Positions 2,879 through 37,566 of a stretch of 49,050 nucleotides of DNA are shown in pieces. How positions within the stretch are numbered: position 1 is the first letter of the stretch; every line of letters begins with the position of its first letter. Both the position numbers and the translations under genes were made by a program. Source of the stretch: a virus; the IMG/VR virus record IMGVR_UViG_3300037189_005169, positions 1-49,050 of that record; one strand, given 5' to 3'. The notes beneath the pieces are model-generated. The model worked only from the letters and a program-made list of their open reading frames with translations, was not told where the DNA came from and ran no database searches.

Positions 2879-3676
2879 TTAGTTCATGTATGCCTTGCCA
2901 GAAAAACCAGCAGAAAATTCTATTGTTAGATTATTTAAATCAACATATGTTACCTGACCATACATAAGTATGTTATTTATATTAACTACTGAAACAGAAG
3001 GAAATTTATTCAAGTTATGTGCAACATTCCATGTGGCACTAGCCGTTGATTGTATAAATACATAGTTCTTATCTCCTACAGGAAGATCTTCAGCAGTAAT
3101 AAATGGATGTATTCCATCCTCACCATCATTTATTAAATCAGATGTTTTTGTAGGTACATTACCAGTAAATCCATCAACTAGAGATATAAGATATTCGTCA
3201 TCTTCTACAATGCTTCCGTTACCAGTTATATAAGATAATGTTACATCAAAAAAGTTAGGTTCTAATAAGTTTTCAATTAAACTATCTAACTTATAGTAAC
3301 CAAATATATTTACATCATTAGCCTTGCAGATTAATATTTTTTTATCAACTAAGAAGTTAAGGTATTCAGATACATCATTACCCTTTAAGGTATACTTACT
3401 TAGTATAAAATTTGTTATATCTGAAAAGTCATATGGAGTACCAACCTGTGGATCAAATGTTATCGTACCACGTAATCTATCATCTAATGGCTCAAGTATA
3501 TCGTATCTGTATCTAATAGGAGTTCCGATATCTATAACCTGATTCTCATTAAAATATACAGCTAACTTCGTTGGTGTAAAGTTCTTTGTAGTATTTTGAG
3601 TTTCAGAATCAGAACCAATCCATTTATCAGATCCAGTTACCTTTGTATCAATTATGTATCTACTTATCTGAGTCAT
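2879..3676 (-). CDS. Phage structural protein with C-terminal fibre-type domain
   Basis: 265 residues starting MTQISRYIIDTKVTGSDKWIGSD. The C-terminal 60 residues (WNVAHNLNKFPSVSVVNINN ... FSGKAYMN) match a widespread phage tail or baseplate ending of the type HNL.K.PSV.VV...FSGKAY.N. The N-terminal two thirds are not recognised beyond a likely attachment role. The gene sits upstream of the fibre genes in the same leftward cluster and starts 4 bases after the stop of a small basic gene. Confidence 0.7.
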   Translation of the reverse strand: MTQISRYIIDTKVTGSDKWIGSDSETQNTTKNFTPTKLAVYFNENQVIDIGTPIRYRYDILEPLDDRLRGTITFDPQVGTPYDFSDITNFILSKYTLKGNDVSEYLNFLVDKKILICKANDVNIFGYYKLDSLIENLLEPNFFDVTLSYITGNGSIVEDDEYLISLVDGFTGNVPTKTSDLINDGEDGIHPFITAEDLPVGDKNYVFIQSTASATWNVAHNLNKFPSVSVVNINNILMYGQVTYVDLNNLTIEFSAGFSGKAYMN

Positions 3677-10187: not shown

Positions 10188-10498
10188 AGGTATTGGTTTT
10201 AAAGGAATTTTGATTCTAAGGCAAAAACTCGATAAATTGGTATTACGATACGTTCTGGATCATTATCGTGGCTTAAAATCGATTTTAGAGGGTCACAGAG
10301 GCTGCCTTATCCCCCTCACGTTTCAATTACCCTAATATTTATCATATAATAAAGTGATCCGATCCATAAAAGCCCTATTCTATTGGCCTGACGTATAAAT
10401 CCAATGTGTAACCCTATAATTTTAACTATTGTGCGTAACATAGTAGTCCCGTAAACACTAGGATCTTAAAAATAAAGTGTTAAAGTTTTGTTAAAAAG

Positions 10499-10529
10499 TT
10501 GCAGGAGCCAGATATCCATCGTATGTTTG
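10499..10529 (+). promoter_or_regulatory. Strong early promoter 1
   Basis: TTG (10499-10501), exactly 20 bases, then TATGTTTG (10522-10529). Upstream is the A/T element GTTAAAGTTTTGTTAAAAA. The full -33/-7 arrangement of Bacteroidota is visible. It shares the upstream element and the start region TTTGCAGTGT with promoter 2. It is oriented towards the early operon. Confidence 0.75.
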
Positions 10530-10667
10530 CAGTGTTCAAATGAGACATGCTAGTCTAAGTTCATGAGATCAACATCCGAGTATTGTAAGTTATTATTTAG
10601 GGCGTTACGCTAAGCAGTATACCGAGATAGACGAGAAGATAGCAAATGTTAAAGTTTTGTTAAAAAT

Positions 10668-10698
10668 TTGCGAGATTGAAATTTTATTATAATCTTTG
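10668..10698 (+). promoter_or_regulatory. Strong early promoter 2
   Basis: TTG (10668-10670), exactly 20 bases, then AATCTTTG (10691-10698; the first position differs from TAnnTTTG). It is preceded by the same upstream element as promoter 1, 169 bases further on, and followed by the same CAGTGT start. Transcripts would run through the hammerhead ribozyme into the early genes. Confidence 0.7.
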
Positions 10699-10814
10699 CA
10701 GTGTCGAGACCACAGATTTAAAAAGTGGCGGAAGTGGAAAACACTATAAAGCGGGTAAGTCTACTCTGGCGTAAAAACCGAAGGCCATGATCTCCTCAAA
10801 TAGAGACAGACATG

Positions 10815-10873
10815 TAAGTGTATACGGATGACAACAGGCCGTACTGATGAGCTACAGAATAGCGAAACACTTA
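10815..10873 (+). ncRNA. Type III hammerhead ribozyme
   Basis: Every core element is present in order. Stem III 5' strand TAAGTGT (10815-10821); cleavage triplet GTA with cleavage after A10822; stem I TACGG (10823-10827) pairing with CCGTA (10839-10843) around an 11-base loop; core CTGATGA (10844-10850); stem II GCTA (10851-10854), loop CAGAA, TAGC (10860-10863); core GAAA (10864-10867); stem III 3' strand ACACTTA (10867-10873, 7 bp including the conserved A-U pair). Stem III is the open one, so it is type III. It lies between the early promoters and the first early gene (ATG 10886). Self-cleavage would separate a ~120-300 base leader RNA from the early mRNA, which then begins with a 5'-OH. 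Confidence 0.9.
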
Positions 10874-10885
10874 ACACATATTATT

Positions 10886-11095
10886 ATGACCTACACAATT
10901 TTATCAGCTAGATTAAATTATAGCCAAGAAAATAAGTTTTTAAAAAAAATAAATGCTAATTCTTTAGATGAGGTAAAAGAAATAATAAAAAAACCTATTA
11001 ATGAAGACGGATTATTTATGAATCCAGCATATACCACAATACTACTAGATAGTAAAGTTATTTACAATCAACATTTACCAATTTATATAAAATAA
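10886..11095 (+). CDS. First early gene, hypothetical (69 aa)
   Basis: An in-frame ATG at 10847 lies inside the hammerhead core, so I choose the ATG at 10886 (MTYTILSARLNYSQENKFLK), 12 bases after the ribozyme. The protein is AT-rich in codons, soluble, with a Lys/Asn/Ile bias and an ending of the type VIYNQHLPIYIK. No family is recognised. As the first gene after two strong promoters it should be among the earliest and most highly expressed. Confidence 0.6.
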   Translation: MTYTILSARLNYSQENKFLKKINANSLDEVKEIIKKPINEDGLFMNPAYTTILLDSKVIYNQHLPIYIK

Positions 11096-19132: not shown

Positions 19133-19262
19133 AATTATGTGGTGTAAGGCTAGGGCTTTTCTCTGGCGTGGAAACACGTAGTAAACAATTAGCAGATGTA
19201 CACTGCGACCATAAAGAGAAATTGTTAGAACTAAGATACAGGTTCAAGCCCTGTCATAATTT
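19133..19262 (+). ncRNA. Oversized tRNA-like RNA 1
   Basis: A 7-bp acceptor (AATTATG 19133-19139 with CATAATT 19255-19261) and a 5-bp T arm (ACAGG-TTCAAGC-CCTGT, 19238-19254) are perfect. Between them are about 98 bases instead of about 40. They include a CGTG-GAAA-CACG hairpin (19167-19178) and a long arm TAGT/ACTA plus AACAATT/AATTGTT (19179-19233). No clear anticodon is seen. It could be a tRNA with an insertion, a tRNA mimic or a decayed gene. Confidence 0.45.
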
Positions 19263-19539: not shown

Positions 19540-19623
19540 TAACGTAATGACGTGAGAAGCACTACATCCGAAAATATTTAACAATCCTGTCAAGGAGGCA
19601 CTTCTCACAATACTGCTAAATTG
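19539..19623 (+). ncRNA. Structured HNH leader RNA, copy B
   Basis: GTGAGAAG (19552-19559) pairs with CTTCTCAC (19601-19608) across 41 bases, the same spacing as copy A; two base pairs are changed on both sides at once. The internal hairpin TCCT-GTCA-AGGA (19585-19596), the AATATTTAA stretch and AGGAGGCA are conserved. Fifteen bases separate it from the ATG at 19624. Confidence 0.75.
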
Positions 19624-20319
19624 ATGGGATTTTTTAATGATATGAAGACGTGTAGAAATTGCAAGACAGAAAAAGAATTAATAAATTTTGGAATTGATAA
19701 ATATCAAGAAGACGGATATAATTCACTTTGTAAATGCTGTAGAAAAGAATACTATTTAAATAATTTAAATAAAAGAAAAGAATATCTTGTAAATAATTCA
19801 GAGCATATAAAAAAAAGAGAAAAAGAATATAATTTAAAAAACAAGGAATATAAAAAATCATATTATATATATGATAAACATAAAAGAAAGGAATATTATT
19901 TAGTTAATAAATTAAAGATAAAACAATATCAAATAAATAATAATGATAAAATAAAAAAACAAAAAAATAAATATTACAAAAATAAAATAGCAATAGATTC
20001 ATTGTTTAAATTAAGTAGTAATATTCGTACTTTAATTAGAATGTCTATAAAAGGAAATGGTTATACTAAAAAATCAAAGACATATCAAATACTTGGTTGT
20101 TCTTTCGAAGAGTTTAAACAACACTTAGAGAGCCAATTCACTGAAGGTATGACATGGGATAACCAAGGTAAATGGCACCTAGACCATATATACCCAGTAT
20201 CACTAGCAACAGATGAACAACACTTAATTAAATTAAACCACTACACAAACTTTCAACCATTGTGGGCGGAAGATAATATTAAAAAATCAAATAAATTAAA
20301 CAGGGTAGCCGAAAACTGA
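19624..20319 (+). CDS. HNH endonuclease B (231 aa)
   Basis: Paralogue of endonuclease A. Start at the ATG 19624 (MGFFNDMKTCRNCKTEKELI), aligned with the start of copy A. It has the same plan: an N-terminal CRNC...CKCC zinc module, a Lys/Asn/Tyr-rich repeat region that is shorter here, and a C-terminal HNH domain (KWHLDHIYPVSLATDEQHLI, then LNHYTNFQPLWAEDNIKKSN). The HNH ends of A and B are much more alike than the repeat regions. It probably arrived with its leader as a unit. It lies between the tRNA-like array and the SSB-like gene. Confidence 0.88.
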   Translation: MGFFNDMKTCRNCKTEKELINFGIDKYQEDGYNSLCKCCRKEYYLNNLNKRKEYLVNNSEHIKKREKEYNLKNKEYKKSYYIYDKHKRKEYYLVNKLKIKQYQINNNDKIKKQKNKYYKNKIAIDSLFKLSSNIRTLIRMSIKGNGYTKKSKTYQILGCSFEEFKQHLESQFTEGMTWDNQGKWHLDHIYPVSLATDEQHLIKLNHYTNFQPLWAEDNIKKSNKLNRVAEN

Positions 20320-20352
20320 ATAGAGTAGGTAAATACACTTAAATTAAATAAA

Positions 20353-27076: not shown

Positions 27077-28625
27077 AGATTCAATATTACATTACTTCTC
27101 AACTGGACACAGTATAACTGTATCATGTAACAAGGCCTGTGATGATCATAATGTTGTTTATAACGATAGTATGAGAAGAAAGGTATCCAAGTGGCTTGAA
27201 AAAAATAAGATATCTAATAATCTAGAAATAGAGAATACAGATGTTTTCAAAGAAGCTAAGAAGAAGGTATATGATAACTCTAAGAAGAAATTCATTGTAT
27301 CATGGTGTCAATCAGAGACAGATATAAACCATAGGCTAATGACAAATATGGAGGCTTATGCAGAGCATATTGATGCCTCTATACACATCATAGCTGGTAG
27401 GTACAAGAATCCAATATCGCTATCTGCTAGTAAGTCAATCCAGAATAAGGAGGATATTGCTCAGAACTCATGGCATGAGAGAGTGGTTCCTTATCTTGAT
27501 GCAAATAGACATAAGATACACAAGCATTTATGTATCCTATCGGACCTTAAAATTCAACCAACAGCATCTACTCCATTATCTGGAATAAATGGGCTTACAG
27601 GGCTTGAATCATGCATCATTGGGCATCCTAGAGTTCATCTTAAGTCACTACCAATACTTGACGGTTATCCTCATAAGCTAATCCTTACTACAGGATCTGT
27701 TTCTGTTGAGAATTACACTGATACAAAGGTTGGTAAGAAGGGTGAGTTTCACCATACATACGGATTTGTTGTTGTTGAGTTAGACGGTGATAACTTTCAC
27801 GTAAGACAGGTAACATCTGATGATCTTGGATCGTTCTATGACCTAAACTTCTATGTATCCAATGGATTGGTTGAGAAGACTGAAGAGAATACCGTAATGG
27901 TGTTTGGAGATCTTCACCTTGGAGAAACAAATGAAGAGGTTCTTGAGGTAGCATTCGACATGGCCGATAGACTTAATTGCAAACAGATCATACTTCATGA
28001 TGTATTCAATGGTCACTCTATATCTCATCATGAGAGAAACCAGCCATTCCAACTACTTAAGCGTGAGGAGGATGGATCAGGTAATCTAATTAATGAACTT
28101 GATGAGATGGTTGACTTCTTCGAGAAGTATTCAAACTATAACTTTGCTGTAGTTAGAAGTAATCATGACGAGTTCCTAGATAGATGGCTTAGTGATATTG
28201 ACTGGCGTAAGCACAGTAACAAGATGGCCTATATACAGTTAGCATCTATGATGGTTAACTCTGATGAAAATAAAGGGGTTATTCCATTGTACCTGAAGAC
28301 AGTTAATGTTACCAATGCATTTTGTCTAGGAATTGACGATAGCCTTAGAGTTATGGACTGGGAGCTTGGAGTCCATGGTCACATAGGAGCTAACGGTAGT
28401 AGAGGTAGCGCTATGCAGTATGCTCAGATGAATACCAAGAATATCACAGGACACACACACTCTCCATTGAGATTGGACGGTCATATATGTGTTGGTACAC
28501 TAACTCATCTTAGAGTTGGTTACAATAAGGGGTTATCCAGTTGGATGAATACAAATGCTGTAATACATCCAAACGGTAAAGCTCAGCTAATAAATATTGT
28601 AAACGGTAGATATACCACACTATAA
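27051..28625 (+). CDS. Metallophosphoesterase with N-terminal HTH (524 aa)
   Basis: Residues 1-55 (FKDSILHYFSTGHSITVSCN) look like a helix-turn-helix. The C-terminal half carries the calcineurin-like set: GDLHLGE at about 286, the ILHDVFNGHS loop, SNHDE at about 370-374, HGHIGANG and GHTHS at about 467, so both metal sites are complete. The middle (IIAGRYKNPIS ... HKHLCILSDLKIQPTASTPL) is a conserved region I associate with phage proteins of the T5 A1 type. It could be a nuclease acting on DNA, as Mre11-like enzymes do. A terminator follows 7 bases after the stop. Confidence 0.8.
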   Translation: MKKYTQEFKDSILHYFSTGHSITVSCNKACDDHNVVYNDSMRRKVSKWLEKNKISNNLEIENTDVFKEAKKKVYDNSKKKFIVSWCQSETDINHRLMTNMEAYAEHIDASIHIIAGRYKNPISLSASKSIQNKEDIAQNSWHERVVPYLDANRHKIHKHLCILSDLKIQPTASTPLSGINGLTGLESCIIGHPRVHLKSLPILDGYPHKLILTTGSVSVENYTDTKVGKKGEFHHTYGFVVVELDGDNFHVRQVTSDDLGSFYDLNFYVSNGLVEKTEENTVMVFGDLHLGETNEEVLEVAFDMADRLNCKQIILHDVFNGHSISHHERNQPFQLLKREEDGSGNLINELDEMVDFFEKYSNYNFAVVRSNHDEFLDRWLSDIDWRKHSNKMAYIQLASMMVNSDENKGVIPLYLKTVNVTNAFCLGIDDSLRVMDWELGVHGHIGANGSRGSAMQYAQMNTKNITGHTHSPLRLDGHICVGTLTHLRVGYNKGLSSWMNTNAVIHPNGKAQLINIVNGRYTTL

Positions 28626-28632
28626 AAACAAA

Positions 28633-28657
28633 GCCTCCTTTAATTGGAGGCTTTTTT
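28633..28657 (+). terminator. Rho-independent terminator
   Basis: GCCTCC (28633-28638) pairs with GGAGGC (28646-28651) and is followed by TTTTTT. The stem is identical to that at 20648. It ends the replication operon. Confidence 0.85.
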
Positions 28658-28670
28658 AACTTACATTATT

Positions 28671-28985
28671 ATGAATAGACCTTTATGTAAATGCGGAAAT
28701 AAATGCAGACCTAATGGATTTAGTCGTGTTACTGGCAATCCATTATTTAATACTTATTGTCGATCATGTTCTAAAACAAAACATGGTAAGAAAGAACGAA
28801 TAAATAAAGTACTAAAAAAAGATACTTGTGAATTGTGTGGATTTATACCTATTAATCCATGTCAACTTGATTTAGATCATATTGATGGAAATAGAAATAA
28901 TAACGATTCATCTAACCATCAGACATTATGTGCAAATTGTCATAGACTAAAAACATTTAATCAAAAAGATTGGACAGTTTTTTAA
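28671..28985 (+). CDS. HNH endonuclease C (104 aa)
   Basis: I use the ATG at 28671 (MNRPLCKCGNKCRPNGFSRV); an upstream ATG at 28644 is inside the terminator loop. Two zinc-binding parts are visible, CKCGNKC...CRSC at the N-terminus and CELCG...CANCH at the HNH core. The catalytic stretch is LDLDHIDGNRNNNDSSNHQT. It is unrelated in plan to HNH A and B and has no leader RNA. It stands alone between the terminator and the convergent late operon. Confidence 0.85.
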   Translation: MNRPLCKCGNKCRPNGFSRVTGNPLFNTYCRSCSKTKHGKKERINKVLKKDTCELCGFIPINPCQLDLDHIDGNRNNNDSSNHQTLCANCHRLKTFNQKDWTVF

Positions 28986-29001: not shown

Positions 29002-32000
29002 TTAATTTCTAGTTCCGCTCTGACTTCTACTTCCAGAAGCTTCTCTACTTCCAGAAGATTCTCTACTTCCAGATGATCCTCTATTTCCTTCAGTATCTTC
29101 TACATTTTCAGGTCTTAGGCCCATCTGCTCTATCATTCCTCCTTGGAAGTAACCACTTCCAAAACCACTAGACTTGTAGTCAAACTTAACCTCTGGAAGA
29201 CCATTCAATCCTCTATAGATATCACGAACATCTCTAACAACTCTCCAAGGTATAATAGGTGTAGACAATCTACTTCCAACTAATTGACCAGCACCTCCTA
29301 AAGCCTTCTGTGTTTTACCAGAAGCAGCATTCTTCATTGCTTGTTGAAGTTTTTTACCTTCATCAAACGCATCTGCCTTTATATTCATCTGTTGACCTAA
29401 GAACTCTCCAAGTTTCTTATCCTTCTGAGCTAACATAAACTGTACAGCTGGAGGATTCATCTTCTTCACATACTTATTAGCCCATGGATTCTTCTCTAAC
29501 CAATCGTATAGATCGTCATCTGCTCCAGTAGACTTAGCTAATGCAAATGCAGCTAGAGTTACAGCAGCTCCAATAAACATTCTAGCATTGGCATTCTTAG
29601 CAAGTAACTGATACTTCAAATCCTTCTCAAGATTCTTCATGCCTTCTTCTGTACTAATATCAAGTTTACTTGCTCTAGACTTAATGTTCCAGTATATTGT
29701 ACTTAGTGTAGGTATACCAGCCTTTTGAGCAGCTAGTAAGGTCCAGTTGGTACCACCACCAACATAAGGGTTAAGTATATTTGTTGTAACTATTGAAGCA
29801 GCAGTTAATGCAGCAGCATCGTTCCATTTCTTATCCTTAACAGCTTTGTCTGTTCTAGTCTGTACCCATGAATTAAATAGATTCAATGGTTTAGATATAA
29901 TGTTGTTTGGTTCATGACCTAATTCAAATCCAGCAACTGTTTCAGCAGATTTTAAAGAAGCTTCAAGTTCATCCAATGTAATTTTATTACCCTGAACTAA
30001 TGATTCATTAACCAAGTCATTTGCAAATCTATAGATACTTTCTTTAGAATCTGAGATAACCTTCTTACCTGCATTCTCATTTATTTTATTTATAATTTCT
30101 TTAGAAGTAACTAGCGCATCTTCAAATGATTGTCCAGTTAATTGTTCTGAAACATAGTTCTTAGCTTCTGTTTTAGACATACCCTTCTTTCTTAGTATCT
30201 TTATTAAGTTATATTGAAAGAATCCTTGAGCAAGTGCAGCCTTATGCATACTATCGGCAGACTCTAGGAATGGTTTACCAAGAGCAGCTGAAGTTAGTGC
30301 ATGATATAATCTGCTATCGCTAGCGTTAACTATTAGATCCATTGTCTTACTTTTAGTAATAAACGGAGATGTAACATCACCAAACTCAAGACCAGCATTC
30401 ATTGTTATATCCTTAAATGTCATTTGAGCTAACTTATTTCTTGAAGCCTTCATTGCCTTAGTATCTACATTATCAAACATAAATCCAATCTTTTTAAAAG
30501 CTCTAGATATATACCCAGATGTTGTGTTCTCAATAGCCTGAGCTACAGATACTAACGCATTTCTTTGTGCTAAACCGATAAACTCTTTAGCAACTACAAC
30601 AGCCTTATAAGCTCCATTTGACTGAGACCAGGCAATCTTACTTAATAAAGTTTCTATCTTCTTATTTATAGATCTCTCGGCAAACTTTAAGTATTCCTGG
30701 CTTAGTTTGTTTCCATTACTGTCCTCTTGAGAGAATAATTCAGATAAGCTCTTAGCTAAATTCTTAGCCTCATCAAAACTTTTCTGGTCTAACTCATTCA
30801 TACCAAGGGCAGTATTCATTAATCGATCATAAGTATCAGACTCCTTTTCAAATAAGCCATAGTTGTATAGCTCTGCTAACTTCTTAGCACTTGTCTTTAG
30901 ATCTACCTTCTTTCTTGGAGTGTTTCTATTCTCTAACTCATTAAGAGACTTTTCAATAATGCTTGCTCTAAGGTTGTTGTACTCATCCTCTAATTCTTTA
31001 GCAGCGTCCTTACCTATTATCTTCTCTACATTTTCTCTTATCTTATCTACACTTCCTTCCTCTCCAGCAAGTTTCTTCCAGTCAAGAACATTACGCTTTA
31101 CTTTACCTTGTTTAGTTCTAACTGTTATCTCTTTACCAAATCCAGCATCTATTAAGGCTTGCTTAACTACTTCTTTATCAGAAAGTTCTTTAGCTTTTAT
31201 TTCTTTTTCAGTTATTCCTTCAGTCTTGAAACCTTCAGTCATATCCTTTCTAAACATATCCTCATTGGCCCAGTTATTACCGTACTTCTCCTTGATATGA
31301 TTGATACCAATCTCGATAGCGTCAGCTATACTTACACCAGCCTTGATAGAATTCTTTATAACAGTTATACCAGAGTCAATAAGAGCAATCGGTATACCAA
31401 CAGTAGCGTCATAAGCTTTACCTCTTAGTTTATTCTGTATCTTTTCAAGAGCAGCAATAGCTTTATCAGCCTTTACTCTTCTTGCTGTAGGTAGTTTTTT
31501 ATAGATCTCGTTAACTTGTTTCTCAACACCACTTAATATCATTTGTTCCAAGTCAGACTCAGCAACTATGTTCTCATACTCCTGCTGAATTGCATCAGTG
31601 TCAGACTGAATAGCTTTCTCAATAGCCTTCTTATCTCTTAACTGATCACTTGATAAAAATTTATCAGTAACAGATTCATAGTTAAATCCATCCTTCATTA
31701 TAGCTCTTAATCTACCAGCGTTTATAGCAAGTGAAGATTCTCTTAAGAACTGTTGTGATTTTGCTCTAACTAGATCCTGTAACTTCTTTAGTCCTACATT
31801 ATCTGGTTCTAAGTTAACTCTATCAAACATTTCATTCTCTAATGAAACATATAATACAGCTTTTTCATGAGGCTTTAAATTGGCAGTATCTAAGAACTCA
31901 AGTGTTTTTTCAATATACTTATCTCCATAAACTTCCTTGGCCATAGCTACAGTTTCCTTACCATGCATTCCAGCATCAATAAGAGACATAACCTCTGTTT

Positions 32001-35000
32001 CTTGTGCGTTACGTGGAGCTTCACCTTCAACTTTCTCTATGGTTTCACCACTTAGATACTTTCCAACTATACCAGATTGTGGTAATTCTTTAACCTTGTC
32101 TCTAAACGCCTCAACATCGTTAGTAGCAACCACTTCTTCTTTTACTGTTGTCAGCTCATTATAAGCTCTCTCAGCTAAAGAAACCTGATCAGCACCTAAT
32201 TCACTATCTATAGTTTTTTTGATCTCTGTGATAGACATGCCGTCATCGATCATATCCTTAACAATATCCTTCATATCTGAGTAATCCTCAGATTCCTGCA
32301 TTCTAACTTTAGGATTATCCATTATAATTCCTTTACCGTAAGGCATATTTGCAGTAGCTCCTACTCTTCCAGAAAATGCAGTTCCTAATTCTTTTGCTGT
32401 TTTACCTTCTAAACTAGTTAATATTTCTTTACCGTTTGATCTAGTTTTAGGAAGAATAAGGACAGGTTTTTTATTAGATACATTTCCATTTTCATCTACA
32501 ATTTTAATATGATATGGGTATGATTGATGACTATCTTGAACTACTTTTACTTTTCCATCTATTTCTATAACAGCATATACATCTCCAGTATTTAATCCTT
32601 TAGTTAATTTTTCAGCAGATGTTTTAGCTATTAAATCAATTAAACTTTGTGATTTTTCTGTTTTACCTACACCTAAGCCCTTGTTTTTATCTCCATCTAA
32701 AAAGCTAATAATTTCATTTTTATTATTTTTAGCACTTTCTGACTTAGCTAAATTAGAAACTATATCTCTTAATACATTACCTCTTTTTTCAAACGTAGAT
32801 GAAGTTACATCTTTAAAGAAATTATCTACTTCTGATTTTAATACTTTAGCGCTTCCGTTAGGAGATAAAGATATGGTTCCTCCGCTTGATTTAACAGCTG
32901 ATCTAACAGCTGATCTAAAATCAGACAAACTAAATAATCCAGCATCTATCATAGATTCAGTAACCGCTAAACTTGACGTAACTCCCTGAGGACTACTTAC
33001 TAATTTAGCGTCTGTTCCTTTTACTAAAGCTAAATATGATTTACCAGTTTCAGGATCATATGTTTCATTGATTGCGTTTGCTAATCCATTGGCTACTCCT
33101 TTGTTAGAGTTTGCCCATACATCTCCAAATTTAGTTACAAAATAAACACCACCATTACCAACAGCTACCTCTTTTCCATTTACAAGTATAGAACCAACTA
33201 ACATATCATCTGGAGATGTTGTAACAACTCTTTTACCATTTAACTCAGATAAGTTTTCAGGCTCAGTTAATAATCCACTTTGTTTTAATTCATCTACCCT
33301 ATCTTGTTCTAAATATTTAATTTCAAGATTAACTTTGTCATTTCCATATTGAAATTTTTTAGTTAACCCATCTGACGGAGTATCTACTTTTTTACCACCT
33401 TTAAATATTTCAGTATCCTTAGATACAATCTCTTCTCCAGTAGCAATCTTTCCAGATAATGTTTTAAGCATATCTACAATCTCACCCTCTGTGAATGGTT
33501 TTAAACCAAACATCTTAGCAAGACGATCCATAGCTCTCTTAATTATAGATTTAGTAGGAGCATCGAATCCTTCATAACCATCAGCAAGATATCCAAAAAG
33601 TTCAGCCATCTTCTCTTCGCTCTGAATATTTTCATCGTAGTTCTTAGAAAATTCTTCTAAAGTTCTCTTAAGTTCAGGATTACCATCAAGAGTTTTAGCA
33701 ATAGAATCAATCATTCTCTTGGTTAGATCTCTAGCGTTAGCATCTGTCTTTACTTTATCTAATAATACAGAATGGAATACCTCGTGAGCAACAGTTCTAG
33801 CGTTAGCTTCCAAAGCATTTATATGTATGGTCTTCGTTGCTGGATCGTAGTATCCTCTTCCGTTTTTACCAGCTACTCCTATAAAAGATTCTTTAGTATC
33901 ATGAACAACAAACTTAACATTAGGCAATATGTTAGCTAAAGACTTCTTAGCATTTTCAACCTGAGAATCTAATTTAGTTCTATCGTATGCTGGTTTATTA
34001 ACATATTTAGCCTTAAACGCTTCAAGTTTAGATTTAGCAATAGTTGGTTTAATTTCTATTAAATTCTTACCATCCTGTGTTACGAATAATTCTGGGTTAA
34101 ATTCACCCCATCCATCCTTAGTCCCTCTCTTAACATCATAAAGTATACCCTTCTTATCAGAAAGTTGAGCGATAGCTTGTTGCTTAGTATCATCCAATAA
34201 CTTAACCATCTCAGAACTTGTAAGAGGTCTAGATATCTGCATAGATATTGTAGGCTCAGTTCCTTCAACCTCAGATGAAGATATAACCTCAACATCCTTA
34301 GGAAGTTTAGACAATATATCTTCGGTAGACATTCTTTTATTTGTTCTACCCTCAAGCAATCCTATGTTTAAGTGGTGTCCTTCTGGAGCATTCTTAACCT
34401 CAACAGTCTCACCAACCACATTTACAGTACGTCTCTGCTCTGGCTCATAAGCTAATGCTTCTGCATACATATCCTTCGTATCTTGAGATAATGTAGTATC
34501 CTCTTCGATAAGTTTAGTTACCTCTTCTTGGTTTATTGTAGACATCTCCTTGGAAGCTAATCCATAAAGGGTATCATACTCACCAACCTTATTTTTTTCA
34601 GCGTTAATTTGATCATAAACAGCCTTAAACTTAGCTTCTTTAGATTCTGGAACAATAGCTTTAAATCCCCTTTGAATGTTACCAGCATATTGCTCTTCAA
34701 ATGGTTTTACAATAGTAGAGCCCTCCTTTAGTTCAACATCGGTAGGAGCAAATTCTTTAGTAGTCTGAGCTCTAGTTTTACCCATCCATTCAGACACCAC
34801 CATATCATAACCATTCTCACCAGCTATTTTAGTAATATAAGCTGCCTTAGTATTAGCGTCAAATGCCTTACCAGGATTTTCTTCTTCATGAAGAGTCTTT
34901 GCTTGTTCAGCATAGTTATTAGGATCAGTATTGGCATCGTATACCTTTTCTTTCGGTATAGTAACAGCGTACTTAGCCTCACCTCTTACCATTGTTTCGC

Positions 35001-37566
35001 TATCATCTGGCTTAGTATAGTACATAGCTACTCCTCCTACCTTACTTAATGCACCTGCCTCTTCTTTAGATGTAGCAATAGTACCTCCAGTAGATTTTTT
35101 TATCTTATCATAACCCTTACCTCCAACATGGAAGAATACAAAGTCACCGTTCTTATCCTCTGTAAGATTAGCATAGTTTGATGATGTTTCTGGAGAAATA
35201 ACTTCAACAGGTTTAACCTCTTCAACAACTACTTCTTCAGTAGGTTCGTACTTAGCGTCTATCAAAGCATTTCTTTCAGTTTGAGCAGCTCTATAGTCAG
35301 ACTCTAGTGATTTAATAAGCTCTGCTTTATTTGGTAAGTTACCTTCATTTACAGCAATTGCTTCTGTTTTAATATCGGCAATCTTATTATTTAAATCAAT
35401 AATTGTTCTATACACATCATCAGGCATGTTATTTACCTTTTCTATTGTGTTAGCTATTATTTTAGAATTTTGAACTGTAGCTTTTTCTATCTGTCTATTA
35501 ATTACAGCCTTCTCTGTATCGTTTAAAGATTCATTCTCTAACTGTTTAGAAAACTCTATAATTTTTTTAGAGTTCTCATCTAATATATTTAAATCAGTAT
35601 TATTCTGATGTGACTTAAGTATTGCTCCAGCAACATGAGGTGCTGCCTTTAATACATTAGTAAGTGTAAATGTATCCTTTAATACAGTTCCAGCATTATC
35701 TAAAAGACCAACGTCTTTTTTACCTAAAACATATTTATCAGTAAAGTTTTGTGCAAAATTAGTAAACTCTTCACCAGCAACTTCCTTACTCATATCAATA
35801 GACCAATCCTTGGCCCATTCTTTAGCTTTTTCTTTAACAGACTTAGCTATTAGATCGCCTTCATTTTTAACTATAGAATCAAAAACTCTTCCTCCCTTTG
35901 TAAGTATAGATAGTGTAGGTATTTCAGATATAACCTCAGCAGATCCCCAAAGAGCTGGAGCTACAGCCATTTCTAATGGAGAATAACTAGCCTTGCCATC
36001 AAGAACTTCTTTATTCATTTGAGTAAATTTCTCTCCAGTAGAAGATATACCAACAACTCCTAATCCACCAATACCAGTAGAAGTGGCAACTAAGTTTGGA
36101 ATTTGTTTAGAAACAATATCAGAAACATAGTTAATAAATCCTTCAGGACTTTCTATACTTTCTACATTCTTTCTTAATTGACCTTCTTCTTCAGATATAT
36201 AATCACCTATCTTATTTGTAACCTGTTGTCCAGCATTAGAATATAATTCTCCCTGTATTCCACCTCCAAATTTTGCAGCATAATTAGTAAATCCTAATAT
36301 ACCATTTAATATTTTAGCTCCTCCTAATCCAATATTTGAAATTGCATTATCGATATCTCCATATCTTCTCTTAAGCAAATCAAATTCTTGTTGTGCAGTA
36401 CCTAAATCTTCCTTATTTTTATTGATTACAGATTGTTTTTTCTGTATGGTATCTCCAATACCAACTATCTCATTTCCTAAAGAAACATATGCATCATATA
36501 TATCCTTCGGAAGAGCTTGGTTATTATTTTTATAATTAAGAAGTTGTTGTTCTAAATCTTTATATTCCTTAATTTTTTTATTACCAATAACCTCGTATGC
36601 ATTTATAACTTTCTCCTCCTTCAAATTACTTTCTTGAAGATGTTCTGCTATTTGTTTTCTTGATTGTTTTAATAAATTTTTATCACCTTCGTCAAGATTA
36701 TCTAAGAAAGAATTTATATTATCAGTTTCAATATAATCAACCTGCTTGTCCTTATATCTTTTTTTAGCCAGTTCTGTTATCTGATCTTCTGTTAAATCAA
36801 TTTTATTCTTAGCAGCGTCTTTTTTTACTTCTTTTTTTTCTTCAGACAATGGATCTAAATCAGCCTTAAGTTCTCTTATTCCTGGTTCATCAGTAATAGA
36901 AGCAGCTTGATCTATTAAGTTATTATATATGTTTAATGATTTTGCTTTTACATTATTCCAAACACCAGTATTTGTAAGCAAGTCGTCAAGTCTTTTATTT
37001 GCTTCTAAATCTACAGCCTCTTCATTCTTAGCCTCTTTGAATTGATTCTCTATTTCAGATAATCTTGATTTAGTAATTTCATCCTGAGCTTTAATAACAG
37101 AAGATAGCTCATCTGTTTTTCTTAATACCTCTTCTTGATTTTCTGGAGTAACTTTTATTGTAGACAATTCTTTCTGTAACTTTAATCTTTTACCTATTAA
37201 TTCAGACGATTTAGAAACCTTTGTAACAGGTTTAGCCTGAAGAGTCTTTTGTTCTTCAGGTGTAAATCCAGTAAAAGTTTTCATTTTAGGTGGTCCATCT
37301 AAACCATCCGATTCCACAGGAGCTTGAATTTCTTCTGTAGCCGATGAAGTAGGTATGGTTTTCTGTTTTGGTTTGGATACCAACACATTTTCTTGAGAAG
37401 TAGGTTGTGAAACAGACTTTTTTTTTTGAGCTATAAATGTTTCCTTAAATCTACGTAAGTCTTCATCAGAAGCTCCTTCTTGAGCATATTTAGTTAGTTC
37501 AGAAATTAATTGCTTATGATTTTCATCATTTAATCCAGACGGGTTATTTTTAGGTCTCTGTAACAT
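29002..37566 (-). CDS. Giant polyvalent internal (cargo) protein, 2854 aa
   Basis: The largest gene of the window, starting MLQRPKNNPSGLNDENHKQL. Residues about 30-450 are charged and coiled-coil-like. About 780-960 (FFHVGGKGYDKIKKSTGGTI and following) resembles the toxin or ART-like modules of phage polyvalent proteins. A zincin motif HEVFH lies at 1261-1265 in TVAHEVFHSVLLD. A long helical region covers about 1900-2600. Near 2660 is a hydrophobic segment (MFIGAAVTLAAFALA). The last 25 residues are repeats of SGSRE type. No DxDxD RNA polymerase motif is visible. As the last gene of the late operon it is probably packaged in the head or tail and ejected with the DNA. Confidence 0.75.
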   Translation of the reverse strand: MLQRPKNNPSGLNDENHKQLISELTKYAQEGASDEDLRRFKETFIAQKKKSVSQPTSQENVLVSKPKQKTIPTSSATEEIQAPVESDGLDGPPKMKTFTGFTPEEQKTLQAKPVTKVSKSSELIGKRLKLQKELSTIKVTPENQEEVLRKTDELSSVIKAQDEITKSRLSEIENQFKEAKNEEAVDLEANKRLDDLLTNTGVWNNVKAKSLNIYNNLIDQAASITDEPGIRELKADLDPLSEEKKEVKKDAAKNKIDLTEDQITELAKKRYKDKQVDYIETDNINSFLDNLDEGDKNLLKQSRKQIAEHLQESNLKEEKVINAYEVIGNKKIKEYKDLEQQLLNYKNNNQALPKDIYDAYVSLGNEIVGIGDTIQKKQSVINKNKEDLGTAQQEFDLLKRRYGDIDNAISNIGLGGAKILNGILGFTNYAAKFGGGIQGELYSNAGQQVTNKIGDYISEEEGQLRKNVESIESPEGFINYVSDIVSKQIPNLVATSTGIGGLGVVGISSTGEKFTQMNKEVLDGKASYSPLEMAVAPALWGSAEVISEIPTLSILTKGGRVFDSIVKNEGDLIAKSVKEKAKEWAKDWSIDMSKEVAGEEFTNFAQNFTDKYVLGKKDVGLLDNAGTVLKDTFTLTNVLKAAPHVAGAILKSHQNNTDLNILDENSKKIIEFSKQLENESLNDTEKAVINRQIEKATVQNSKIIANTIEKVNNMPDDVYRTIIDLNNKIADIKTEAIAVNEGNLPNKAELIKSLESDYRAAQTERNALIDAKYEPTEEVVVEEVKPVEVISPETSSNYANLTEDKNGDFVFFHVGGKGYDKIKKSTGGTIATSKEEAGALSKVGGVAMYYTKPDDSETMVRGEAKYAVTIPKEKVYDANTDPNNYAEQAKTLHEEENPGKAFDANTKAAYITKIAGENGYDMVVSEWMGKTRAQTTKEFAPTDVELKEGSTIVKPFEEQYAGNIQRGFKAIVPESKEAKFKAVYDQINAEKNKVGEYDTLYGLASKEMSTINQEEVTKLIEEDTTLSQDTKDMYAEALAYEPEQRRTVNVVGETVEVKNAPEGHHLNIGLLEGRTNKRMSTEDILSKLPKDVEVISSSEVEGTEPTISMQISRPLTSSEMVKLLDDTKQQAIAQLSDKKGILYDVKRGTKDGWGEFNPELFVTQDGKNLIEIKPTIAKSKLEAFKAKYVNKPAYDRTKLDSQVENAKKSLANILPNVKFVVHDTKESFIGVAGKNGRGYYDPATKTIHINALEANARTVAHEVFHSVLLDKVKTDANARDLTKRMIDSIAKTLDGNPELKRTLEEFSKNYDENIQSEEKMAELFGYLADGYEGFDAPTKSIIKRAMDRLAKMFGLKPFTEGEIVDMLKTLSGKIATGEEIVSKDTEIFKGGKKVDTPSDGLTKKFQYGNDKVNLEIKYLEQDRVDELKQSGLLTEPENLSELNGKRVVTTSPDDMLVGSILVNGKEVAVGNGGVYFVTKFGDVWANSNKGVANGLANAINETYDPETGKSYLALVKGTDAKLVSSPQGVTSSLAVTESMIDAGLFSLSDFRSAVRSAVKSSGGTISLSPNGSAKVLKSEVDNFFKDVTSSTFEKRGNVLRDIVSNLAKSESAKNNKNEIISFLDGDKNKGLGVGKTEKSQSLIDLIAKTSAEKLTKGLNTGDVYAVIEIDGKVKVVQDSHQSYPYHIKIVDENGNVSNKKPVLILPKTRSNGKEILTSLEGKTAKELGTAFSGRVGATANMPYGKGIIMDNPKVRMQESEDYSDMKDIVKDMIDDGMSITEIKKTIDSELGADQVSLAERAYNELTTVKEEVVATNDVEAFRDKVKELPQSGIVGKYLSGETIEKVEGEAPRNAQETEVMSLIDAGMHGKETVAMAKEVYGDKYIEKTLEFLDTANLKPHEKAVLYVSLENEMFDRVNLEPDNVGLKKLQDLVRAKSQQFLRESSLAINAGRLRAIMKDGFNYESVTDKFLSSDQLRDKKAIEKAIQSDTDAIQQEYENIVAESDLEQMILSGVEKQVNEIYKKLPTARRVKADKAIAALEKIQNKLRGKAYDATVGIPIALIDSGITVIKNSIKAGVSIADAIEIGINHIKEKYGNNWANEDMFRKDMTEGFKTEGITEKEIKAKELSDKEVVKQALIDAGFGKEITVRTKQGKVKRNVLDWKKLAGEEGSVDKIRENVEKIIGKDAAKELEDEYNNLRASIIEKSLNELENRNTPRKKVDLKTSAKKLAELYNYGLFEKESDTYDRLMNTALGMNELDQKSFDEAKNLAKSLSELFSQEDSNGNKLSQEYLKFAERSINKKIETLLSKIAWSQSNGAYKAVVVAKEFIGLAQRNALVSVAQAIENTTSGYISRAFKKIGFMFDNVDTKAMKASRNKLAQMTFKDITMNAGLEFGDVTSPFITKSKTMDLIVNASDSRLYHALTSAALGKPFLESADSMHKAALAQGFFQYNLIKILRKKGMSKTEAKNYVSEQLTGQSFEDALVTSKEIINKINENAGKKVISDSKESIYRFANDLVNESLVQGNKITLDELEASLKSAETVAGFELGHEPNNIISKPLNLFNSWVQTRTDKAVKDKKWNDAAALTAASIVTTNILNPYVGGGTNWTLLAAQKAGIPTLSTIYWNIKSRASKLDISTEEGMKNLEKDLKYQLLAKNANARMFIGAAVTLAAFALAKSTGADDDLYDWLEKNPWANKYVKKMNPPAVQFMLAQKDKKLGEFLGQQMNIKADAFDEGKKLQQAMKNAASGKTQKALGGAGQLVGSRLSTPIIPWRVVRDVRDIYRGLNGLPEVKFDYKSSGFGSGYFQGGMIEQMGLRPENVEDTEGNRGSSGSRESSGSREASGSRSQSGTRN

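Follow-up and report, generated by a model that had tools for sequence, protein, structure and literature searches.

A single-copy type III hammerhead ribozyme and a covarying pseudoknotted leader RNA precede the first gene of a predicted early operon in a family of phages

The DNA analysed here, a viral stretch of 49,050 nucleotides that we refer to as the window, carries at positions 10815-10873 of its plus strand a type III hammerhead ribozyme that, judged by sequence, is complete, belongs to a family, occupies a fixed place in single copy and lies behind a leader RNA whose structure covaries. The best explanation for this arrangement is probably RNA processing, with the hammerhead cutting free a structured early leader RNA. 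Elements of this kind are known, and as far as can be told the novelty lies in a lineage-wide, single-copy unit that includes a pseudoknotted leader. The function of phage hammerheads has been open since 2011; a lineage with one hammerhead per genome, at a fixed place, joined to a covarying RNA and with a cultured representative (Elemovirus) makes it testable what a phage gains from cutting its first transcript and what job the freed RNA performs.

A preliminary description of this DNA had claimed a complete type III hammerhead with all parts in order and free of mismatches, and every part is indeed in place. Stem III, an open helix of 7 bp (10815-10821/10867-10873), leads into the cleavage triplet GUA, whose A10822 occupies the H17 position of the hammerhead consensus, placing the predicted cut between 10822 and 10823. 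Stem I (10823-10827/10839-10843, 5 bp) is followed by the core motif CUGAUGA (10844-10850), recognized in the sequence itself and by both the Rfam model RF00008 and our own model R1, then by stem II (10851-10854/10860-10863, 4 bp, loop CAGAA) and by GAAA (10864-10867), which closes the catalytic core (10844-10867). All three stems are free of mismatches, and the CUGANGA core, GAAA and U-H triplet that mark the type III hammerhead are all present. ViennaRNA gave mean pair probabilities, in the context of the leader, of 0.90 for stems I and II and 0.81 for stem III, and self-cleavage would be expected after A10822. An ATG at 10847 lies inside the core, in frame with the first gene; as many relatives have CUGAAGA or CUGACGA at this point, translation probably starts at ATG 10886.

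An Infernal search with Rfam models, which the same description had proposed as a check, returned a full-length RF00008 match with an E value of 1.4e-7 (cmscan of the 701 bases from 10300 to 11000 against 4227 families), although its 41.5 bits fall under the gathering score of 48.5. A scan of the whole window with Rfam does not list the hammerhead, and RF00008 appears only in the short-region scan, so standard annotation would miss it; routine Rfam annotation likewise misses the family, whose tested members all stay under the cut-off. R1, a covariance model that we made from 39 phage hammerheads, gave 66.3 bits (E 3.4e-19), a score that is partly by construction since the window is one of the 39 training rows. 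The next R1 site in the 49-kb window reaches only 10.3 bits, and no second hammerhead was found there. The core-only pattern CTGANGA-N-GAAA matches the window 6 times against 3.66 expected by chance; the evidence is the full architecture, and the core pattern alone is worth none.

The motif is not peculiar to the phage of the window, as dozens of related viruses share the arrangement and form a large phage family. The search pattern CTGANGAGNNNCAGAANNNCGAAAC, which leaves stem II unconstrained, matched 90 IMG/VR stretches, and stem II pairs at 3/3 positions in 89 of the 90; this figure is unbiased, whereas the paired percentage for the family as a whole is biased by the choice of members partly on their pairing. 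As a yardstick, the same pattern matched 8 times across 257 Gb of genomes from bacteria and archaea, with stem II paired in 2 of the matches. The sole full ribozyme among these cellular hits is L095, and the others (L096-L102) were rejected because their stems fail. We obtained 76 non-redundant ribozymes with all three stems, with GUA as the cleavage triplet in 46 and GUC in 29, and an ORF begins with ATG 6-50 nt downstream (median 18) in 74 of the 76. Across an alignment of 39 relatives all three stems covary, 14 of the 18 pairs changing on both sides, with a covariation of 0.82 against 0.185 for shuffled alignments. Loop II is CAGAA throughout by design of the search, and loop I is variable. 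Exactly one R1 ribozyme was present per record in 20/20 whole phage records. The space free of ORFs upstream of the ribozyme has a median of 768 nt, compared with 237 nt for ORF starts elsewhere.

The 78 first genes found behind ribozymes fall into 57 unrelated families, and this, taken with the −7 element found upstream, indicates a unit composed of promoter, leader and ribozyme rather than of ribozyme and gene. Using the first-gene protein as bait yielded one spurious relative, L004, which lacks the ribozyme. Among the side observations, a GC-rich phage contig (L094) carries on its minus strand two type III hammerheads (3113-3169 and 3493-3549) about 380 nt apart around a small gene, each followed by a start codon.

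Two promoter-like sites lie upstream of the hammerhead and 12 nt separate its end from ATG 10886, which bears out the placement given in the preliminary description. The upstream −7 element, TATGTTTG (10522-10529, plus strand), is exact to TAnnTTTG, the Bacteroidota-type promoter −7 consensus, and has a predicted start at about 10535. The proximal element, TAATCTTTG (10690-10698, plus strand), has one additional spacer base and a predicted start at about 10704, on the edge of the structured leader. The two sites share a 61-nt direct repeat (D1) of 74% identity. Among 55 AT-rich related leaders the −7 element lies upstream of the ribozyme in 37, against 0.12 expected. We infer that the promoters are used and that the operon is early; the hammerhead-bearing transcript is predicted to be the first RNA that this virus of Bacteroidota makes. 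The first gene of this rightward operon (10886-11095, plus strand, from the ORF list) encodes a protein of 69 aa that has no Pfam or PHROG match, and the operon spans 10.9-29 kb on the same strand as the leader and hammerhead. The non-coding stretch between the promoters (10573-10704), which looks structured, can be recognized in all 68 Elemovirus records at about 73% identity and recurs 5' of other ribozyme leaders (L037, L064, L068, L076 and L088).

The predicted 5' cleavage product is a conserved pseudoknotted leader RNA (10703-10822, plus strand) defined by alignment A3 of 14 phages and by model R2. Alignment A3 places on the plus strand the helices Pa (10710-10713/10725-10728), Pb (10733-10736/10742-10745), Pc (10753-10756/10763-10766), Pd (10768-10769/10778-10779) and Pf (10786-10789/10811-10814), a hairpin with an AAAUA loop (10795-10805) and a pseudoknot (10759-10762/10782-10785). 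The pseudoknot is of the H type: bases 3' of CGAA pair with the loop of a hairpin whose stem is GGGU/ACUC, and this loop pairing occurs as GUCU/AGAC, GACU/AGUC or GCAU/AUGC. In A3, 18 of the 28 proposed pairs change on both sides, and the covariation of 0.409 compares with 0.143 for shuffled alignments (0/500 shuffles) and at most 0.07 for slid-partner controls. Pf ends at G10814, adjoining the first base of stem III; its pair probability is just 0.09-0.14 in pseudoknot-free single-strand folding, and its support thus comes from covariation. Model R2 scores 136 bits in the window and matches 26 of the 58 loci searched, the window included. The leader (10703-10813) has no Rfam match, RF00008 being the sole hit at E<=5 in 10300-11000 among the 4227 families.

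The least biased evidence for an intact ribozyme core comes from three scans that searched for the leader only and made no use of the ribozyme pattern: the hammerhead was intact in 15/15 genuine contigs recovered in this way. One contig found via its leader, L106, had been overlooked by the ribozyme pattern, its loop II being CGGAA. Four further matches to the leader pattern were set aside as chance, L105 and L107 for want of an R2 hit and L103 and L104 as GC-rich unrelated sequence. That the motif matches by chance, or is a relic without activity, might be suspected from the score below the RF00008 gathering cut-off and from the ease with which the core-only pattern arises by chance, but such a reading is contradicted by the covariation of all three stems, the fixed position, the single copy and the intact core in every one of the leaders found independently of the ribozyme. 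Its recurrence at one and the same position in dozens of related phages makes it very unlikely that the motif arose by chance or is dead, and we regard this account of the window hammerhead as extremely improbable.

A second leader class, of different sequence and with compensatory pairs in its own alignment (A4), precedes the same ribozyme in L032, L015, L051, L052, L057, L059, L060, L068, L075 and L087. It too has a hairpin with an AAAUA-type loop and a likely pseudoknot. The occurrence of two leader classes before one ribozyme makes a single fixed leader function uncertain. HK022 put RNA, phi29 pRNA and lambda nut are structured phage early RNAs or leaders, and to our knowledge none of them is followed by a ribozyme. 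The leader could act in the manner of put as a cis antitermination or polymerase-binding RNA, with the ribozyme severing the tether after binding. The leader would be the earliest RNA to be transcribed, it shares its strand with the long rightward operon (10.9-29 kb), it is independent of the first gene, and its structural classes change fast, as is often so in recognition elements; cleavage, however, would break the connection to the nascent RNA through which elements of this type normally work, and we think this role unlikely. We give a still smaller chance to the idea that the leader senses a signal and the hammerhead responds to it, the two forming a natural allosteric riboswitch-ribozyme that gates the early genes by regulated cleavage. 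Pf adjoins stem III in class I leaders, so that binding of a ligand or protein could couple to cleavage, and leader and ribozyme are strictly linked, the former being pseudoknotted like many sensor RNAs. Against this, the same ribozyme is preceded by different leader classes, the loops are variable with no long invariant block resembling a ligand pocket beyond GGGU/ACUC and AUAA, and type III hammerheads with contacts between loops I and II are normally fast and constitutive (PMC6155905).

Under the processing model that we prefer, the early transcript would begin near 10704 (proximal promoter) or near 10535 (distal promoter), and the nascent RNA would fold into the pseudoknotted leader and then into the type III hammerhead directly behind it. 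The hammerhead would cut co-transcriptionally after A10822. The compact leader so released would measure about 118 or 285 nt, in agreement with the roughly 120 or 300 bases put forward previously, and would end in a 2',3'-cyclic phosphate generated by the ribozyme. The polycistronic early mRNA would keep a 5'-OH and would open with the rest of the ribozyme, 63 nt upstream of the first ATG. The most likely role would be the constitutive release, with definition of the 3' end, of a phage early non-coding RNA, and the 5'-OH of the mRNA may be a second benefit. The 7-bp stem III could hold the two products together after the cut, which speaks against release; it may keep both halves joined until a ribosome or helicase opens the stem. 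The leader structure is conserved while the first gene is freely exchanged, so the ribozyme appears to serve the leader and promoter unit, and for the same reason most weight falls on RNA release or processing and less on protection, antitermination or sensing. The module had been described as the gate of the early operon, an emphasis that may be misplaced: the leader that would be released is itself conserved and pseudoknotted, and processing is the better fit. Both the cleavage in the cell and any independent action of the freed leader are predictions of this model. We offer more tentatively, as a possibility somewhat short of even, that these leaders constitute a new family of pseudoknotted phage early non-coding RNAs of about 120 nt, each with a 3' end produced by its own dedicated hammerhead, which exists to release the RNA; in Bacteroidota phages such RNAs would act on RNA polymerase or help to take over the host.

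The closest precedent is found in the HF1/HF2 haloviruses. There, Perreault et al. 2011 (PMC3088659) report a hammerhead variant (HHphage) separated by 13 nt from the first ORF of a polycistronic early transcript, whose mapped 5' end falls no more than three nucleotides from the point of cleavage. That precedent, together with the tight spacing of ribozyme and ATG in nearly all cases (6-27 nt), favours an account in which the ribozyme serves mainly the mRNA, its 5'-OH and defined 5' hairpin shielding it from 5'-end-dependent decay or setting translation, and the leader being a folding aid. Such an account leaves unexplained both the 120-250 nt of upstream RNA kept with pseudoknot covariation and the restriction to one operon per genome, and we consider it rather unlikely compared with leader release. 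HHphage likewise has its hammerhead some 10-30 nt before the operon's first start codon (13 nt there, 12 nt here), but it is a variant-core hammerhead of archaeal viruses whereas ours has the canonical core and occurs in Bacteroidota phages, and we found no mention of a conserved structured leader for it (PMC3088659). That paper also describes many prophage hammerheads, among them multiple ones flanking prophage genes in the Agrobacterium tumefaciens ardA region and elsewhere, which likewise process phage transcripts near start codons but occur several per operon, in contrast to one per genome at the first early gene here (PMC3088659).

A 2017 review regards the role of prokaryotic hammerheads as open and notes their persistent link to phage genomes (PMC6155905). 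In the open-licence literature we found nothing on hammerheads in crAss-like phages or other Caudoviricetes, nor on a structured leader tied to a hammerhead. The claim that such a placement is undescribed holds in part only, given the HF1/HF2 hammerhead before the first early ORF (PMC3088659). The RF00008 type III hammerheads of plant satellites and bacteria share the catalytic core, three-helix topology, open stem III and GUA/GUC triplet with the phage members, which differ in scoring below the cut-off where tested and in carrying CAGAA in loop II in nearly all cases (a product of the search design); RF00008 also occurs in circular-RNA replicons, in contrast to the single copy in a phage leader found here.

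The phage had been called crAss-like, an assignment that its nearest relatives do not support. The nearest named ones by protein are the unclassified podovirus MW202828, Elemovirus, Pervagoviridae (phi38:1, Calle) and Pachyviridae (phi13:2, Gundel), and a structural protein and the primase point to a podovirus group near these. By DNA the nearest named phages are 68 records of the cultured genus Elemovirus, on Flavobacterium sp. BAL314. Both Elemovirus records that we examined have the hammerhead at the corresponding position, 13 nt upstream of the first gene that reads rightward, and its stems I and II differ from those of the window yet stay paired (compensatory changes). In record MT497105 the predicted cleavage site falls within 967-1023. 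The Elemovirus RF00008 score of 36.3 bits is also below 48.5. No R1, RF00008 or R2 match was found in phi38:1, phi13:2, Gundel, Calle, Panino, phi46:1 or the Manatee Spring phage, which indicates that phages of the wider group can do without it, and other known ribozymes were not found in a 20.8-kb stretch of MW202828. Elemovirus record MT497105 (L002) contains at 2735-2815 a second hammerhead-like RNA, weakly matched by the RAGATH-1 model (RF03152, 27.8 bits), with a type I layout, GUC triplet, CUGAUGA and GAAA, about 24 nt before another early gene; its topology differs and it is not the element of the window. The deposited annotation has a minus-strand ORF over this region that is probably spurious.

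Elsewhere in the window, the 2854-aa protein encoded at 29002-37566 has no PHROG or PDB sequence match. At 19133-19262 the Rfam tRNA model scores 31.4 bits, above its gathering cut-off; the match contains two large insertions, was missed by ARAGORN and adjoins an endonuclease VII-like gene (19621-20319); it is possibly a broken or interrupted tRNA. A DUF805b cis-regulatory RNA match, also over its gathering score (37.9 bits, E 2.8e-7), lies at 20299-20331, overlapping the end of an ORF just upstream of a gene start. Finally, the interval between convergent operons holds a symmetric hairpin (AAAGCCUCC/GGAGGCUUU, 28609-28677) that has T runs on both strands and is likely a bidirectional terminator.
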